A DNA stretch of 64,000 nt, taken from assembly GCA_029981855.1 (NCBI GenBank), contig JARRCS010000018.1:1-64000 (forward strand), given 5' to 3'. The translations under genes were made by a program, and so were the position numbers. The notes beneath the pieces are model-generated. The model ran no database searches. It was not told where the DNA came from and saw nothing but the letters and a program-made list of their open reading frames with translations. Every line of letters starts with the position of its first letter. Within the stretch, counting starts at the first letter, position 1. Of this stretch, positions 6,911 to 50,747 are shown piece after piece. The DNA is from Halanaerobiales bacterium (GTDB lineage: Bacteria; Bacillota; Halanaerobiia; Halanaerobiales; DTU029).

Positions 6911-6997
6911 AAAATAGAGGTTTTCGATTGCAGAAACCTTCTTTTTACCTGCGCATAGATGGTTTCTGCATCAGGTCATCGAGGCCGTCGCAGCGGA
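6911..6997 (+). repeat. Dispersed repeat R2 (left end and core)
   Basis: Starts four bases after the oxidoreductase stop. AAATAGAGGTTTTCGATTGC matches the family's left end, followed by the core hairpin GAAACC...GGTTTC (about 6931-6966) and the ATCGAGGCCGTCGCAG module. The right end is not recognisable. An open frame that runs through it (TTG at 6928) is not part of the downstream protein. Confidence 0.75.
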
Positions 6998-18516: not shown

Positions 18517-20538
18517 ATGAATAATAATAGATTTATACTGTATTCCCCCTATAAACCCAAAGGGGACCAACCGCAGGCGATCGAGAAACTGGTCGAGGGA
18601 GTGAAGAGGGGTTACCGGCATCAGACCCTGCTGGGGGCCACCGGTACCGGTAAGACCTATGCCATGGCTGCAGTGGTGGAGAAGGTTAATAAACCTACCC
18701 TGGTAATAGCTCATAATAAGACACTGGCTGCCCAGCTTGCCAGTGAGTTTAAGGAGTTCTTTCCCGAGAATGCGGTAGAGTATTTTGTCAGTTACTATGA
18801 TTACTACCAGCCGGAGGCCTATGTGCCCCAGACCGATACCTATATCGAGAAAGATGCCTCCATTAATGAGGATATCGATAAACTCAGGCTGGCTGCGACC
18901 AGTGCCCTTTTTGAGAGAAGGGATGTCCTGATTGTAGCCAGTGTTTCCTGCATCTACGGCCTGGGTAATCCTGAGGATTACCTGGATCTCTCTTGCCACC
19001 TCAGAGTAGGTGAGATCAGGAATAGAGAGGATATCTTGCGGGATTTAACCTTGATGCAGTACAGCCGTAATGATATCGACCTTTCCCGGGGTCACTTCCG
19101 GGTTAAGGGGGATGTAATCGAGGTCTTTCCCGCCTATAAAGATATTGCCATCCGGGTGGAGCTCTTCGGGGATGAAGTCGACCGGATTACCCGGATTGAT
19201 ACCCTGACCGGAGAGATTTTAGGTGAGTTTAAGGAGATTACCATTTATCCCGCCAGCCACTTTGTCACCCCCGAGGATAAGATCAAAAGGGCGGTTAAGA
19301 CGATTGAGCAGGAACTTAAGGAGAGACTGGCCGAGCTAAGAGAGCAGAATAAGCTGGTGGAGGCCCAGCGGCTGGAACAGAGGACACGATATGATATGGA
19401 GATGCTCAGCCAGATGGGCTTTTGCTCGGGGATCGAGAACTACTCCCGCCACCTGGCTGGCCGGCCTCCGGGCTCGAGGCCGAAAACCCTCCTGGATTAC
19501 TTCCCGGATAATGATTTTCTGGTGTTTATAGATGAATCCCACATGACCATCCCCCAGATAGGGGGAATGTATGCCGGTGACCGTTCCCGGAAGGAGAAAC
19601 TGGTTGAGTATGGTTTTAGACTTCCTTCGGCCCTGGATAACCGGCCCTTAAACTTCTCCGAGTTTGAGTCTCTGGTCCCCCAGGCGATCTATGTTTCGGC
19701 TACCCCTGGCCCCTATGAACTGAAGCACAGCCAGCAGGTTGTCGAACAGATAATCAGACCTACCGGCCTGGTCGACCCCGAGGTTGAGGTTAGACCGGTT
19801 AAGGGGCAGATTGATGACCTGCTGGAGGAGATCAGGCTCGTTGTGGAACGGGATGAACGGGTCCTGGTTACCACTCTGACCAAGAGGATGGCTGAAGACC
19901 TGACCGAGTTTCTGGCAGAGGCGGGGATCAAGGTCCGTTATCTCCATTCAGATATAGATACTCTGGAACGCTCTGAGATTATCAGAGATCTACGTCTGGG
20001 CAAGTTCGATGTCCTGGTAGGGATTAACCTCCTGAGGGAGGGACTAGACCTGCCCGAAGTATCTCTGGTAGCTATTCTCGATGCCGATAAGGAGGGTTTT
20101 CTCCGTTCGGAACGCTCCTTGATCCAGACCATCGGTCGGGCAGCCCGTAATGTCAGGGGCAAAGTAATTATGTATGCTGATGAGATTACCGATTCTATGG
20201 CCAGAGCTATCGAGGAGACAGAGAGGAGAAGGGAGATCCAGCAGACATTTAACGAAGAACACGGTATTAAACCGGAGACCATTATCAAACCGGTACGCGA
20301 GGTTTTAAGGCCGGTGGAGATGGTGGTTAAGGAGACTGAGGAGATTAAGTATGATAGTGATCAGAAATCTAATGGCGCGGATAAGATTAGGGATCTTTCT
20401 CCACAAGAGATTGAGAACTTGATCCTGGAGCTTGAAGATGAGATGAAGGAGGCAGCCGATAACCTGGAGTTTGAACTGGCAGCCCAGATCAGGGATGAGA
20501 TCAAGGAACTGGAGGAAGAGTTAGCTAAATTGAGGTGA
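18517..20538 (+). CDS. uvrB: Excinuclease ABC subunit B
   Basis: 673 residues. DNA-damage verification helicase of nucleotide excision repair; it loads from UvrA2B onto damaged DNA and recruits UvrC. Motifs include Walker [15 protein letters not shown], the beta-hairpin region [23 protein letters not shown], the DEAH-type FIDESHMT, helicase motif VI (QTIGRAARN) and the C-terminal UVR motif that binds UvrC. ATG 18517 is chosen because GAAGGTGA lies 8 bases before it; a GTG at 18505 overlaps that site. It is directly followed by uvrA. Confidence 0.97.
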
Positions 20539-20543
20539 ATTTG

Positions 20544-23360
20544 ATGACAATAGACAAGATAATTATCAGGGGTGCTCAGGAGCATAATTTAAAGAATATA
20601 GATCTGGAGATTCCCAGGGACAAGCTAGTAGTTATTACCGGGCTCAGCGGTTCGGGAAAGTCTTCACTGGCCTTTGACACTATCTATGCCGAAGGGCAGA
20701 GGAGGTATGTCGAGTCCCTTTCGGCTTATGCCCGCCAGTTTCTGGGGCAAATGGAGAAACCGCGGGTAGAGTTTATTGAGGGGCTATCGCCGGCCATCTC
20801 TATAGATCAGAAGACGACCAGCAAGAACCCCCGCTCAACGGTGGGAACGGTTACCGAGATCTATGACTACCTCCGCTTATTATATGCCCGGATAGGTATT
20901 CCCCACTGCCCCCAGTGCGGGAAGGAGATCTCTTCCCAGACCGTTGATGAGATCGTTGATCAGGTCCTGGAACTGCCAGAGAGGACAAAGATCCAGGTGC
21001 TGGCTCCCCTGGTCAGGGGGAGAAAGGGTGAACACCAGCGTGTCCTGGCCAGAGCCCGGCGGGATGGGTTCGTCCGGGCCCGGGTTGACGGTGAAACCAT
21101 CTTACTGGGTGAGGACGAGGTTAATCTCGATAAGAACTTTAAACACGATATCGAGGTTGTCGTTGACCGGCTGGTAATTAAACCGGGCATCAGGGAGAGG
21201 CTAACCGATTCGGTAGAGACTGCCCTGGAGCACGGTGGAGGCCTGGTGATGATCGATGTTATCGATGAAGAGGAGTTAACCTTCAGCGAGAAGTTTGCCT
21301 GCCCTGACTGCGGAATTAGCCTGGAAGAGCTTTCTCCCAGAATGTTTTCCTTTAACAGCCCCTACGGGGCCTGTCCCAACTGTGATGGCCTGGGGATTAA
21401 GAAGGAGTTCGATCCCGAACTTATCCTGGATAGGGAGAGATCAATCAGTAATGGAGGGATTATTCCCTGGAGGAACTCCTCCAGCCGTTACTATCTCCAG
21501 TTACTAAAGGCCCTGGCCAGAGAATATAATTTCAGCCTCCATACACCTATTAAGGACCTGGATGATGATATTGTCGATATAATCCTCTATGGCTCGGAAA
21601 GGGTTCTTTCCTTCCCTTATACAAACCGTTATGGTAGGACCAGGCAGCACGATACCGTCTTCCAGGGGATAATCGGCTACCTGAAGAGAAGGTTGAGTGA
21701 ATCCGATTCACCCGGGGTACACCAGAAGATGGAGGCCTATATGGCTGAGCGCCCCTGTACTGTCTGTCAGGGGGGCAGGTTAAAGCCCGAAGTACTGGCT
21801 GTTACCATCGGTGGGCTTTCCATTGCCGAGTTTACCCGTTTTAATATCAAGGCGGCTCTCAGCTTTCTGGAGGAGCTAGAACTGGATGAGAGGTCCTACT
21901 TTATTGCCCGGGAGATCCTGAAGGAGATCAAGAACAGGCTCAGGTTCTTAGTCGATGTCGGGCTGGATTACCTTACCCTGGACCGCTCGGCGGGCAGCCT
22001 TTCCGGAGGTGAGGCTCAGCGGATCAGGCTGGCAACCCAGATCGGTTCTGGTCTGGTAGGGGTATTATATATTCTTGATGAACCGAGTATCGGCCTCCAT
22101 CAGCGGGATAATAACCGGTTGATCAGAACCCTGGAGCAGATCAGAGATGTTGGTAATACAGTAATTGTGGTGGAGCATGATGAAGATACTATCCGGGCCG
22201 CTGATCATATTATTGATATAGGACCCGGAGCCGGCAAGCACGGTGGTTATGTGGTTGCCGAGGGCTCTCTCAATGATATTATAGCCAGTGAGAAATCACT
22301 GACCGGTAGGTATCTCTCCGGGAAGGAGAAGATTCCCGTACCGAAAAAGAGGTATAAACCCAACGGTAAATACCTGGAAATCAGGGGAGCCCGCCAGCAT
22401 AACCTTAAAAATATCAATGTTAAGATACCTCTGGGCACCTTTACCTGTGTCACCGGGGTTTCCGGTTCCGGAAAGAGTACCTTAATTAATCTGACTTTAC
22501 AGCGCAGGTTGATGCAGCACTTTTATGACTCCACTCCCCGGCCCGGGGAACATGATGAAATTAAGGGGTTGGAATACCTGGATAAGGTGATTAATATCGA
22601 TCAGTCACCTATCGGACGTACCCCCAGGTCAAATCCGGCTACCTATACCAAGGTGTTTGATTATATCAGGGATGTTTATGCTAAAACACCAGAGGCCAGA
22701 AGGCGTGGTTATAAAAAGGGTAGGTTTAGTTTTAATGTTAAGGGTGGCCGCTGTGAGGCCTGCAGGGGTGATGGGATTATTAAGATCGAAATGCACTTCC
22801 TGCCAGATGTCTATATTCCCTGTGAGGTCTGCGGTGGTAAGAGGTACAACCGGGAGACCCTGGAGATCAAGTATAAGGGGAAAACGATTGCCGATGTCCT
22901 GGATATGACGGTAGAGGAAGCCCTGGAGTTCTTTAAAAATATCGAGCCGATTAAGAGAAGGCTACAGACTCTTTATGATGTCGGCCTGGGTTATATCCGG
23001 CTCGGTCAGCCGGCAACCACCCTCTCGGGGGGAGAGGCCCAGCGGGTTAAGATTGCTACCGAGCTGGGTAAAAAGAGTACCGGTAAGACAATCTATCTCC
23101 TGGATGAACCGACTACCGGACTCCATTTTGCCGATGTCAAGAAGCTGCTGGAGGTTTTACACCGCCTCCGGGAGGGGGGAAATACGGTAATCGTTATCGA
23201 ACACAATCTCGATGTGATTAAAGCGGCAGATTATATCATTGACCTTGGTCCTGAAGGCGGTGACCGGGGGGGTGAGGTAGTTGCTACCGGTACTCCTGAG
23301 GAGGTAGCTGAAGTTGCAGAGTCCTATACCGGACAGTTTCTGAAAAAGGTACTGCACTAG
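20544..23360 (+). CDS. uvrA: Excinuclease ABC subunit A
   Basis: 938 residues, the usual size. DNA damage sensor with two ABC ATPase modules ([14 protein letters not shown] near residue 35; [13 protein letters not shown] near 640), two ABC signatures (LSGGEAQR twice) and zinc-binding Cys clusters (CPQCGKE; CPDCG...[14 protein letters not shown]...CEVCGGKRY). It partners with UvrB encoded just upstream. GAGGTGAATTTG before ATG 20544 gives the ribosome site; an alternative GTG at 20535 would overlap the uvrB stop by four bases. Confidence 0.97.
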
Positions 23361-23390
23361 ATACTATAGGAATTTCCTTTTTGAAAACTG

Positions 23391-23588
23391 CAAATAGATG
23401 TTTACGATTGCAGAAACCTTCTTTTTAGTTGCGCATGGATGGTTTCACTGAAATCTTCTATTTATAAACGCATGGTTGATTTCAGTACTAGCACATCGAG
23501 TTGCGTCGCTGCACTAGCGTATCGAGCGCGTCACAGGAATATTTTTGATTCGCCTAAGTTCATCTCTCCAACATCTATTTGCAGTTAT
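23391..23588 (+). repeat. Dispersed repeat R3 (full-length copy, about 200 bases)
   Basis: The most complete copy. The left end AACTGCAAATAGATGTTT is followed by CGATTGCAG. Two related hairpins come next (GAAACC...GGTTTC, then GAAATC...GATTTC), then two related CATCGAG/TATCGAG modules. The right end AACATCTATTTGCAGTT is the exact inverse complement of the left end apart from one end base. It fills most of the uvrA-uvrC gap. Confidence 0.85.
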
Positions 23589-23644: not shown

Positions 23645-25474
23645 GTGGAAGATATTAAGGAACAGCTAAAATTACTCCCCGATAAACCGGGGGTCTATCT
23701 GATGAAGGATGAAATGGGGGAAATAATCTATGTTGGTAAGGCTAAGTCCCTTCGCAAGAGGGTTAGATCTTATTTCCGCCGGGGTAATCATACCTATAAA
23801 ACCCGGATTATGATCGACCATATCACCGATTTTGATTATATTATTACCGATACCGAGGTTGAGGCCTATATACTGGAGGCTAATCTGATTAAAAAGTACC
23901 ATCCGCGGTTCAATATCAGGTTAAAGGATGATAAAACCTATCCCTTTATCAAGGTAACGGTTAATGAGGACTTCCCCCGTATTCTTAAGACCAGGATCGT
24001 TAAGAACGACGGGGCCCGTTACTACGGTCCCTTTGTCAATGTTGATGCCCTCTATAAGACCATCGATATCCTAAAGGATCTCTTTGCCCTGAGAACCTGT
24101 AAAAAGGACCTGAGGGCTGATAAACCGGAGGAGCGTCCCTGCCTCAATTACCATATCGGCAAGTGCCTCGGACCCTGTATCGGTGCTATTGATAAAGATT
24201 CTTACCGGCAGCTGGTTGACCAGGTCTGCCTCTTTCTCTCCGGCCATCAGGATGAATTAATTTCCCGGGTGGAGGAGAAGATGCATCAGGCTGCCCGGGA
24301 GAAGAACTTTGAAAAGGCGGCCAGGTTCCGTGACTCGATGCAGGCTCTAAAGAAGATTTCGGAACAGCAGAAGGTGATGAGCGAGAAGAATATCGACCAG
24401 GATGTAATTGCCCTGGCCAGAGATGAGGAGGAAAGGGCCTGTGTCCAGATACTGATCATCCGTAACGGGCGGCTAATAGGACAGGAATACTATATGATGG
24501 AGGGTTCCGAGGAGGAGTGTAACCCGGAGATTATGGGTTCCTTCTTACAGCAATATTACGAGCAGGCCCCCCAGTATCCCGATGAGATCTTGCTCAGTAC
24601 GGAAATTGAAGAGCCAGAGCTCCTGGCCGGCTGGTTAAAGGAGAAAAAGGGTAGAAGGGTTAGAATCCACCTTCCTGAACGGGGTGAGAAGAAACGCCTG
24701 GTGGAGATGGCAGAGAGGAATGCGACCGGGAACCTGAAGAAGGAGTCGGTTAAAAGGAAATACCAGGAATCGAGAACCGTTAAGGCAGTTTCTCAGCTGG
24801 CCGAATACCTCGGCCTTGCCAGGAGACCATCCCATATCGAGGGCTTTGATATCTCCAATATCCAGGGAACCGACCCGGTGGCCTCGCTGGTTGTCTTTAA
24901 GGAAGGATTACCTGCAAAACAGGAGTACCGCCGATTTAAGATCAGAACTGTCAAAGGCCCCAATGATTTTGCCATGATGCAGGAGGTAGTTGAGAGGCGT
25001 TACAGCCGTCTGCTGCGGGAAGGGCAAAAACTACCCGATCTGATTCTCATCGACGGTGGTAAGGGCCAGCTTAACGCTGCCTATGAAGTCCTCTGCAAAC
25101 TGGGCCTTTCTGAACTGGCTATTATCGGTCTGGCCAAGAGGGAAGAGGAGGTCTTTTTACCGGGCAAGAGTGAACCGGTTATTATCCCCCGTAATTCCTC
25201 TGCTCTTCACCTGCTGCAACGGGTCAGGGATGAGGCCCATCGCTTTGCAGTAAGTTACCACCGTAAACTCCGTTCCCGCCGGCTGACCCACACCATGCTG
25301 GATGATATCCCCGGGGTTGGGCCGAAGAGGAGACAGGCCTTATTACAGCATTTCGGTTCGCTGGGGGAGATCAAAAAGGCCAATATAAGCCAGCTGAAGG
25401 AGGTTGAGGGAATCAGTTCCAGGACAGCCAGGGTAATCTATGACTATCTCCAGGAGAATACCAGGCCATTTTAG
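23645..25474 (+). CDS. uvrC: Excinuclease ABC subunit C
   Basis: 609 residues from GTG 23645. It makes the 3' and 5' incisions around DNA damage. The GIY-YIG nuclease lies at the N-terminus (DKPGVYLMKDEMGEIIYVGKAKSLRKRV), followed by the Cys-containing region, a UVR motif, the RNase H-like nuclease (LILIDGGKGQLNAA) and C-terminal helix-hairpin-helix (LDDIPGVGPKRRQALL). The open frame extends upstream to a TTG inside repeat R3, but that segment is not UvrC-like; the chosen start gives MEDIKEQLKLLPDKPGVY, matching normal UvrC starts. TTG 23627 with GAGGAG is a second possibility. Confidence 0.95.
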   Translation: MEDIKEQLKLLPDKPGVYLMKDEMGEIIYVGKAKSLRKRVRSYFRRGNHTYKTRIMIDHITDFDYIITDTEVEAYILEANLIKKYHPRFNIRLKDDKTYPFIKVTVNEDFPRILKTRIVKNDGARYYGPFVNVDALYKTIDILKDLFALRTCKKDLRADKPEERPCLNYHIGKCLGPCIGAIDKDSYRQLVDQVCLFLSGHQDELISRVEEKMHQAAREKNFEKAARFRDSMQALKKISEQQKVMSEKNIDQDVIALARDEEERACVQILIIRNGRLIGQEYYMMEGSEEECNPEIMGSFLQQYYEQAPQYPDEILLSTEIEEPELLAGWLKEKKGRRVRIHLPERGEKKRLVEMAERNATGNLKKESVKRKYQESRTVKAVSQLAEYLGLARRPSHIEGFDISNIQGTDPVASLVVFKEGLPAKQEYRRFKIRTVKGPNDFAMMQEVVERRYSRLLREGQKLPDLILIDGGKGQLNAAYEVLCKLGLSELAIIGLAKREEEVFLPGKSEPVIIPRNSSALHLLQRVRDEAHRFAVSYHRKLRSRRLTHTMLDDIPGVGPKRRQALLQHFGSLGEIKKANISQLKEVEGISSRTARVIYDYLQENTRPF

Positions 25475-35943: not shown

Positions 35944-35967
35944 TTGAAAACTGCAAATAGATGTTTG
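35944..35967 (+). repeat. Dispersed repeat R4 (left end only)
   Basis: AAAACTGCAAATAGATGTTT, identical to the R3 left end, lies directly after the terminator in a convergent gap. No core or right end. Confidence 0.7.
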
Positions 35968-36025
35968 GAAATTTTTTGTATATAAGTCTTGATGAATCGA
36001 AGGGAAAAACTTGGCCGAGCAAAAT

Positions 36026-43499: not shown

Positions 43500-43556
43500 A
43501 AAACTACAAATAGATATTTACGATTCAGTAGAACTAACATCTATTTACAGTTATTC
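43500..43556 (+). repeat. Dispersed repeat R5 (short complete copy)
   Basis: AAAACTACAAATAGATATTT, CGATTCAGTAGAACT, AACATCTATTTACAGTT: both ends present and only about 15 bases of core. The ends are inverse complements, so the RNA is one hairpin. Confidence 0.8.
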
Positions 43557-46986: not shown

Positions 46987-47077
46987 GCAAACTGCAAATA
47001 GATGTTTACGATTGCAGAAACCTTCTTTTTACTTACGCATGGATGGTTTCAGCACTAGACTATCGAGGCCGTCGCAG
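46987..47077 (+). repeat. Dispersed repeat R6 (left end and core)
   Basis: Starts about 10 bases after the rapZ stop. AAACTGCAAATAGATGTTTA, CGATTGCAG, hairpin GAAACC...GGTTTC, then GCACTAGACTATCGAGGCCGTCGCAG in separate blocks. CCGTCG pairs with CGACGG at about 47096-47101, extending the structure toward the yvcK leader. No right end. Confidence 0.8.
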
Positions 47078-50696: not shown

Positions 50697-50747
50697 AACT
50701 GCAAATAAAAATTTCCAAACATCTCTCCAACATCTTTTTACAGTTGT
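50695..50747 (+). repeat. Dispersed repeat R7 (short complete copy)
   Basis: AAAACTGCAAATAAAAATTT on the left, then CCAAACATCTCTCC and AACATCTTTTTACAGTTG on the right. The rpoN stop codon TAA (50694-50696) runs into the first A of the copy. Confidence 0.75.

Follow-up and report, generated by a model that had tools for sequence, protein, structure and literature searches.

The repeat copy called R3 here, which lies between uvrA and uvrC in the window (a 64,000-nt stretch of a contig from a Halanaerobiales bacterium), is probably a nested mosaic of three layers, in which a non-autonomous mobile double hairpin resembling REP sequences, named U here, sits within a MITE-like element known only from this genome. 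Rather than lying next to each other, the two copies of U in R3 are nested: the 3′ arm of the first hairpin (H1) of an outer unit is split by a complete 63-nt unit between GGTTTC and TGCACTAG (Table 1). An earlier note had described the core of this repeat as modular and internally duplicated, and had read it as a functional RNA array rather than passive DNA. The observation is confirmed and sharpened and its interpretation is partly supported, the RNA array being the part without support; the core consists of mobile double hairpins.

R3 occupies positions 23386–23586, between uvrA (20535–23360) and uvrC, both assigned to gene families. Since matches of uvrC to relatives in the order start at residues 18–26 of its longest frame, the gene probably begins at the GTG at 23645 (letters checked), which would leave R3 wholly intercistronic. 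All the strings named in the earlier note are present, namely the hairpins GAAACC (23413–23418)/GGTTTC (23441–23446) and GAAATC (23450–23455)/GATTTC (23478–23483), followed by two related modules, ACATCGAGTTGCGTCGCTG (23493–23511) and GTATCGAGCGCGTCACAGG (23519–23537); the second hairpin follows at 37 bases (23413 to 23450), not at about 45 as estimated there. Overlooked was that the first hairpin and the last module are halves of one unit, parted by a complete second unit, the four modules being in order the outer H1, the inner H1, the inner second hairpin (H2), and the outer H2. Copies with a single unit read GGTTTCTGCACTAG without interruption, where R3 has 63 nt between GGTTTC and TGCACTAG; the same inner insert is found in two further copies of this genome (C11:4576 and C39:7242), the outer H2 being missing from the latter.

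Table 1. Features of R3 and of other copies of the element in the window (coordinates from the first base of the window)
Feature	Coordinates	Strand	Basis or remark
Left outer extension of the MITE-like element, ATACTATAGGAATTTCCTTTTTGAA	23361..23385	+	Like letters (ATACCATAGGAAATTCCTTTTTTGAA etc.) left of many other left ends; outer limit not fixed
Left inverted repeat, AACTGCAAATAGATGTT	23386..23402	+	17/17 complementary to 23570–23586
Outer U, 5′ part: H1 5′ arm GCAGAAACC, loop, 6/9 bases of the 3′ arm	23410..23446	+	Partial covariance match 23413–23446 (model 4–37); uninterrupted relatives
Inner U, 63 nt, complete: H1 arms ACTGAAATC/GATTTCAGT, ACTAG, H2 around ATCGA, end GTCGC	23447..23509	+	Covariance match 23447–23507, 72.4 bits (sequence in model)
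Outer U, 3′ part: last 3 H1-arm bases, ACTAG, H2	23510..23532	+	Follows on from GGTTTC as where U is single, GGTTTCTGCACTAG
Remnant of the element's own core, ACAGGAATATTTTTGATTCGCCTAAGTTCATCTCTCC	23533..23569	+	Like the core after GATTCAG in U-less copies
Right inverted repeat (AACATCTATTTGCAGTT on + strand)	23570..23586	-	Pairs with left 17-bp end
Single U in a decayed element copy (presumed R2)	6930..6989	+	Covariance model, 78.3 bits
Single U in an element copy with differing right half (presumed R6)	47014..47073	+	Covariance model, 81.6 bits; left end 46990–47006
Short 51-bp element copy without U	43502..43552	+	End pairing
Short 49-bp element copy without U	50697..50745	+	End pairing

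The covariance model recognizes one full and one broken unit in R3; its training set held the inner R3 unit and the units of R2 and R6, and the broken unit was not part of it. The copies presumed to be R2 and R6, credited by the earlier note with one module of each kind, do each carry one full unit. That the second R3 hairpin is related to the first beyond chance is borne out by 45/61 identities to a single unit elsewhere in the genome, and the comparison of the inner R3 unit with the single unit of another genomic copy scores 28, equalled by none of 2000 dinucleotide shuffles (mean −7.3, maximum 8); the shuffles and the other genomic copies thus speak against a unique random similarity, the outcome that the note had set against its own proposal.

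U is a double hairpin of 57–64 nt, composed of H1 (9-nt arms and a conserved loop of ∼20 nt), ACTAG, H2 around ATCGA, and CGTC. In this genome, nhmmer retrieves 46 unit matches at 36 places in the sampled stretches and the covariance model 50 matches genome-wide. Several H1 arm types occur (GCAGAAACC, GCAAAAACC, GTCTAAACC, GTCGAAACC, and ACTGAAATC), each with its own complement, and units are found singly, in tandem, nested, or as chimeras whose 5′ and 3′ arms are of different types, an outcome expected of recombination within arrays. The arms covary strongly. Among 29 units of this genome (36 near-complete nhmmer units, minus 5 that were incomplete or had large indels and 2 that were identical), in an unfitted alignment, 8 of 13 pairs have changed on both sides, with 52 such cells versus 16.3 (sd 3.7) after shuffling; with relatives included (86 units, 80 distinct, in an alignment fitted to the model) the figures are 12 of 13 pairs and 262 cells versus 77.2 (sd 7.1). 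As RNA, the 206-nt R3 repeat is predicted to fold better than 200 of 200 shuffles (z −4.6 for the + strand, −4.4 for the − strand), and with DNA parameters z is −4.7; by our reading of the predicted structures, much of this stability would come from the 17-bp ends. No Rfam family reaches its gathering score in the window, and at 31 loci from this genome and its relatives none covers U, only the tRNA and tmRNA models touching its first bases.

The outer element has the hallmarks of a MITE: inverted-repeat ends (17 bp), no coding capacity, and many dispersed copies. A search for its end pattern, AACTRCAAATAGATGTT at ≤1 mismatch, gives 239 matches across the 2.59 Mb of this genome (0 for the reversed control); 37 other genomes of the order, none of them congeneric, together yield a single one. 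The sampled stretches of this genome hold 119 left and 105 right ends (≤2 mismatches), forming 165 clusters; 67 copies were paired using looser ends, 65 of which span 44–275 bp, and the other two end pairs, 435 and 534 bp long with coding-like DNA between the ends, may be false. Conserved letters reach past the 17 bp on both sides of the ends, and inspection of the flanks by eye, with the outer limits of the element not fixed, revealed no clear target duplication. The left ends lead into U1 (34), an intact core (25), a shortened core (16), the right arm directly (17), or other sequence (27), and the site of U in the left arm can be read in both states, empty as GATT-CAGTGG and filled as GATT-GCAGAAACC...CGTCG-CAG.

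Outside frames, 105 of 160 clusters are co-oriented with both neighbouring frames and 12 are opposed; element orientation equals the majority gene strand of the contig in 142 of the 160, and in 20 of the 25 where the flanking genes disagree (convergent or divergent). This last agreement implies that the bias follows replication at least as well as transcription, a reading limited by crude gene calls, made with a simple longest-frame caller, and by a strong gene strand bias. End-type calls of decayed copies may be wrong, as at 35949–35988, an element end where the inner letters look like an inward-reading right arm; compared with its neighbours, this copy may have been inverted or rearranged. 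Six contigs (C4, C9, C16, C18, C24, and C25 of this genome, G000) end inside or beside the outer element, a pattern that would arise if long identical copies had interrupted the assembly, and an autonomous partner of the element could be hidden at those contig ends.

Under the reading that we favor, this MITE-like long palindrome, present at ∼165 places in the sampled stretches, would be the first layer of R3, a U inserted into its left arm the second, and another U, placed within the first one directly after a TC, the third. U is more widespread than the inverted-repeat element that flanks it, and its range extends through the class: the first covariance model matches 25 of 37 other genomes of the order (E ≤ 1e-3) and the second 34 of 58 other genomes of the class (E ≤ 1e-5), the E-values of both being rough. 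Under stricter filters, 10 of 398 genomes across the phylum matched U, all ten being listed as the present genome or its kin in the family, order, or class, and none lying outside the class. The relatives' units analyzed below come from 99 stretches with 162 matches at E ≤ 0.05.

Insertion of U without a long target duplication can be read from copies of an OrfB_IS605-family gene in genome G013. Two copies are empty (L422 and L447: CCCTC/TGCTGTT, the slash marking the junction), and a third (L433) is filled, reading CCATC/ACTGAGCC...CCGTCGC/TGCTGTT, with a 58-nt U after TC and no duplication; the 365-aa frame that is intact in L422 is split up into shorter ones in L433. Two further comparisons of filled and empty sites, in G010, are less clean, with a few bases differing at the junctions. 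The inner junction of R3, TTTC/(63 nt)/TGCACTAG, has the same form as the G013 insertion. These cases bear on a passive account, in which modules are gained and lost when imperfect palindromes slip or recombine, and U itself does not transpose. Such an account would suit the chimeric units, the core deletions between short direct repeats, and the many arrays that end in partial units, but it has to contend with the clean insertion into a tnpB-type gene whose paralogs are uninterrupted, with the presence of U at many unrelated sites in 35 genomes (this one included), and with a nesting that has two precise junctions; we consider it improbable.

The number of units also turns over at an orthologous locus. 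The fabG-acpP spacer (gene families confirmed in G017) holds zero to three units in 14 genomes: none in G016, G019, and G021, a partial one in G013, about one in G010, G017, and G015, two in G020, G012, and G022, and three decayed ones in G018. In the remaining genomes (G009, G011, and G014) units are nested, a U (ACAAATC...GTCAC) splitting the 3′ arm of another U at C/AGCAC; measured from CTAG, the cut in the host unit (GACTC/AGCACTAG) falls where it does in R3. A further nested-looking unit, in L363, lies at a matching place and possibly shares the same descent. Two independent hits on one of ∼60 positions in U are at most suggestive of a site preference; the three nested copies of this genome may represent one event and those of the Halanaerobium family another, so that the preference rests on two, perhaps three, events. 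The stepwise gain or loss of hairpin units proposed in the earlier note is borne out by the single, tandem, nested, and chimeric units of this genome and with the varying number at fabG-acpP; we suppose that tandem units, once formed, would expand and shrink by slippage or unequal exchange.

Over all insertion sites, 86 of the 103 distinct flanks to which 116 arrays were reduced have a C immediately before U (61 a TC), against a flank background of 20% C; when related flanks are collapsed to 30, C precedes U in 24 by our count. Two considerations run against the preferred reading at this point. The junction C may belong to the unit, since linkers in tandem arrays also read NC, and tandem duplication without transposition could explain the arrays, though not the dispersed sites.

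Among the places where U is found, the 3′ ends of tRNA and tmRNA genes stand out. ARAGORN, applied to 22 stretches (of the 99) chosen partly for tRNA-like flanks, gives 12 cases in 11 stretches in which the last four bases of the gene double as the first four of U (tRNA in L351, L370 twice, L375, L377, L380, L381, L382, L398, L409, and L415; tmRNA in L418); in L402 the RNA gene and U overlap by one base. The 12 units start with ACCA and the 3′ arms of their H1 end in GGT or AGT, so the CCA could be paired in the tRNA precursor. The encoded CCA of these genes lies within the hairpin arm of U. A target duplication of ACCA, suggested by the tRNA cases, was dropped because the match between unit start and right flank does not exceed that of shuffles over 30 collapsed sites (P ∼0.12); more simply, the original tRNA end may have been displaced rightward, the unit itself beginning with ACCA.

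U is likewise present in the rpsH-rplF spacer (gene families confirmed) of this genome (L294, C10:7418–7477) and of G011 (L399), and L355, L388, and L410 carry it after the same rpsH end; the arm types differ among these copies, and the four relatives belong to another family. It also occurs inside IS605-type ends, in a tnpB-type gene, and inside another hairpin repeat of G005. The latter is a separate repeat family, a GAGAAATT...AATTTCTAG hairpin that carries U at one fixed place (L391, L395, L396, L400, L408, L411, and L414), with units that end in GCCAAG, not CCGTC.

Positions such as these invite the view that U is a functional RNA module, whose hairpins, at gene 3′ ends and in intercistronic spacers, would act in RNA protection, processing, or termination and whose number would tune expression (fabG-acpP, rpsH-rplF, uvrA-uvrC). 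The covariation of the arms, the occurrence in conserved-operon spacers (fabG-acpP, and rpsH-rplF both here and in relatives of another family), and the placement at tRNA and tmRNA ends all agree with it, and we compared non-Watson–Crick pairs by strand, an A-C pair in a unit antisense to genes being a G-U pair on the transcribed strand. The split by gene direction used 133 distinct of 150 aligned rows from the 162 matches, with the outermost pair left out because A-C is common there (39/132 cells). Relatives' units antisense to both flanking genes show A-C 19 versus G-T 7, and sense units show A-C 1 versus G-T 3. Among the 80 distinct units pooled before any such split, those of the present genome, where most copies are sense, show G-T 15 versus A-C 7 (those of relatives, G-T 10 versus A-C 24). 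This lean toward wobble on the transcribed strand fits, weakly, hairpins that are tolerated or selected in transcripts, the counts being small and the units related. Other tallies go against it: pooled over 80 distinct units, G-T 25 versus A-C 31; at tRNA ends, A-C 4 versus G-T 2; in mixed contexts, A-C 9 versus G-T 6. Among 30 clusters with at least two units, 18 are antisense to both neighbours and 2 are sense. Moreover, U occurs in both orientations, 3 of the 14 genomes have no unit at fabG-acpP, one U breaks a tnpB-type gene, and related units inflate the counts; we hold a functional RNA module to be unlikely. Of the contrast drawn earlier between a functional RNA array and passive DNA, the denial of passivity survives, in that the covarying arms are not those of unconstrained filler; the RNA array itself gains no support, as U enters new sites (the tnpB-type gene, other repeats) in the manner of a mobile element and the strand test is weak.

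Returning to a mobile U, its insertion might take place while one DNA strand is single and the hairpin exposed, 3′ to a pyrimidine-C, with the enzyme, for example a nuclease of IS200/IS605 type, supplied in trans; copies would then survive in spacers and at RNA-gene ends because hairpins presumably do little harm in transcripts. Y1 transposase matches are present in 30 of the 38 genomes of the order, and the U model applied to 20 Y1 loci finds U only in L421, L422, L423, and L433, in or beside an IS605-type element, so no dedicated transposase for U emerged from the Y1 loci scanned in the order. Three genomes that have U (G024, G025, and G031) give no Y1 match. Frames of 180–291 aa, labelled RAYT-like by us on the strength of that length, number 17 among those listed, and U is absent within 1.5 kb of the 15 that were scanned; the one frame tested against the NCBIfam model for REP-associated tyrosine transposases (L424) scores 77.5 bits, the cut-off being 80. 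RAYTs were accordingly rejected as the mover, given these 15 loci and the genomes with U and no Y1 match; the same two results count against our preferred reading. That U might nonetheless be a CGTC- or GTAG-type REP moved by a RAYT draws on its H2, a small palindrome flanked by CTAG or TTAG (5′ foot) and CGTC (3′ foot), on its residence in spacers like the REPs of PMC3733652, and on the RAYT-like genes of relatives; the tag letters, the side of the tag, the stem length, and the layout all differ, which together with the loci lacking U makes this, too, a poor candidate.

More speculatively, and we offer this only tentatively, U may represent a novel class of mobile elements, ∼60 nt long and devoid of a transposase, whose targets are hairpins (those of U among them) and the ends of RNA genes. 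Its insertion points would be one fixed position in its own 3′ arm and the position immediately after the acceptor stem in tRNA and tmRNA genes, where ACCA, its first four bases, would become the discriminator and the CCA end; mobilization would occur in trans, on single-stranded DNA or via an RNA copy. Short palindromic repeats have long been puzzling where no transposase is evident, and U brings to the problem a precise pair of filled and empty sites, a single position at which it nests in itself, one locus with turnover between species, and a subtype fused to tRNA ends whose CCA, before processing, would be part of the stem of U. The mover, the target rule, and any effect on RNA maturation are thereby directly testable in cultured Halanaerobium.

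Among known systems, U resembles the CGTC and GTAG REPs as characterized in PMC3733652, and falls outside both definitions. The CGTC REPs (Di Nocera 2013, PMC3733652), which include RPE-4 and RPE-6 of Rickettsia and dRS3 of Neisseria, are described in section 6 of that paper as palindromes with stems of 8–9 bp, A/T pairs first, and a terminal unpaired CGTC tag at one end; they lie in spacers, and their mover is left open there. U is similarly a short dispersed palindrome in spacers and sometimes genes, with CGTC beside a hairpin and no dedicated transposase found. Unlike those repeats, its H2 has a modelled stem of 4 bp with a first pair that is mostly G-C and with CGTC at the 3′ foot in unit orientation, so that it departs from the superfamily in tag and stem while sharing the lack of a dedicated transposase; further, U fuses H2 to an H1 with a conserved loop of ∼20 nt, and its units stand head-to-tail and nested. 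The main text of PMC3733652 names none of Halanaerobium, Acetohalobium, and Halothermothrix. With the GTAG REPs and REPINs that accompany RAYTs, U shares a hairpin with a TAG-containing tetranucleotide at its 5′ foot, a non-autonomous nature, and an extragenic location; its tetranucleotide is CTAG or TTAG (consensus cTAG), and it lacks the RAYT gene flanked by the repeat that, with a GTAG-type tag, defines that group, none of the 15 RAYT-like loci scanned carrying U.

A closer precedent is found in Halanaerobium itself. In PMC7290912, 64-nt hairpin inserts (LI and RI) are reported at two places in the IS605 tnpB of Halanaerobium hydrogeniformans, with no part of the insert found outside tnpB in that genome and no family assigned; these are very probably U units, as G010, which judging partly by its inserts is probably this species, has two such inserts at similar places. 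Besides these inserts, the matches listed from the open-licence literature on Halanaerobiales and on palindromic repeats include no account of the U family. Compared with IS200/IS605 elements (Y1 HUH), U is inserted after TC without duplication in one clean pair, and over all sites only the C is common; a target of C or TC is looser than the tetra- or pentanucleotide of that family. The BOX elements of pneumococcus are modular, with a middle module in variable number, and their modules are not known to nest; arrays of U are likewise modular with variable unit number, a likeness of layout. Finally, the mitochondrial hairpin and double-hairpin elements treated in PMC2800124 differ from U in being organellar; as described there, they are thought to be mobile, occur in tandem, and lie in RNA genes and in some cases within coding genes, and U, by description alone, resembles them in being tandem, at RNA genes, and in a coding gene.
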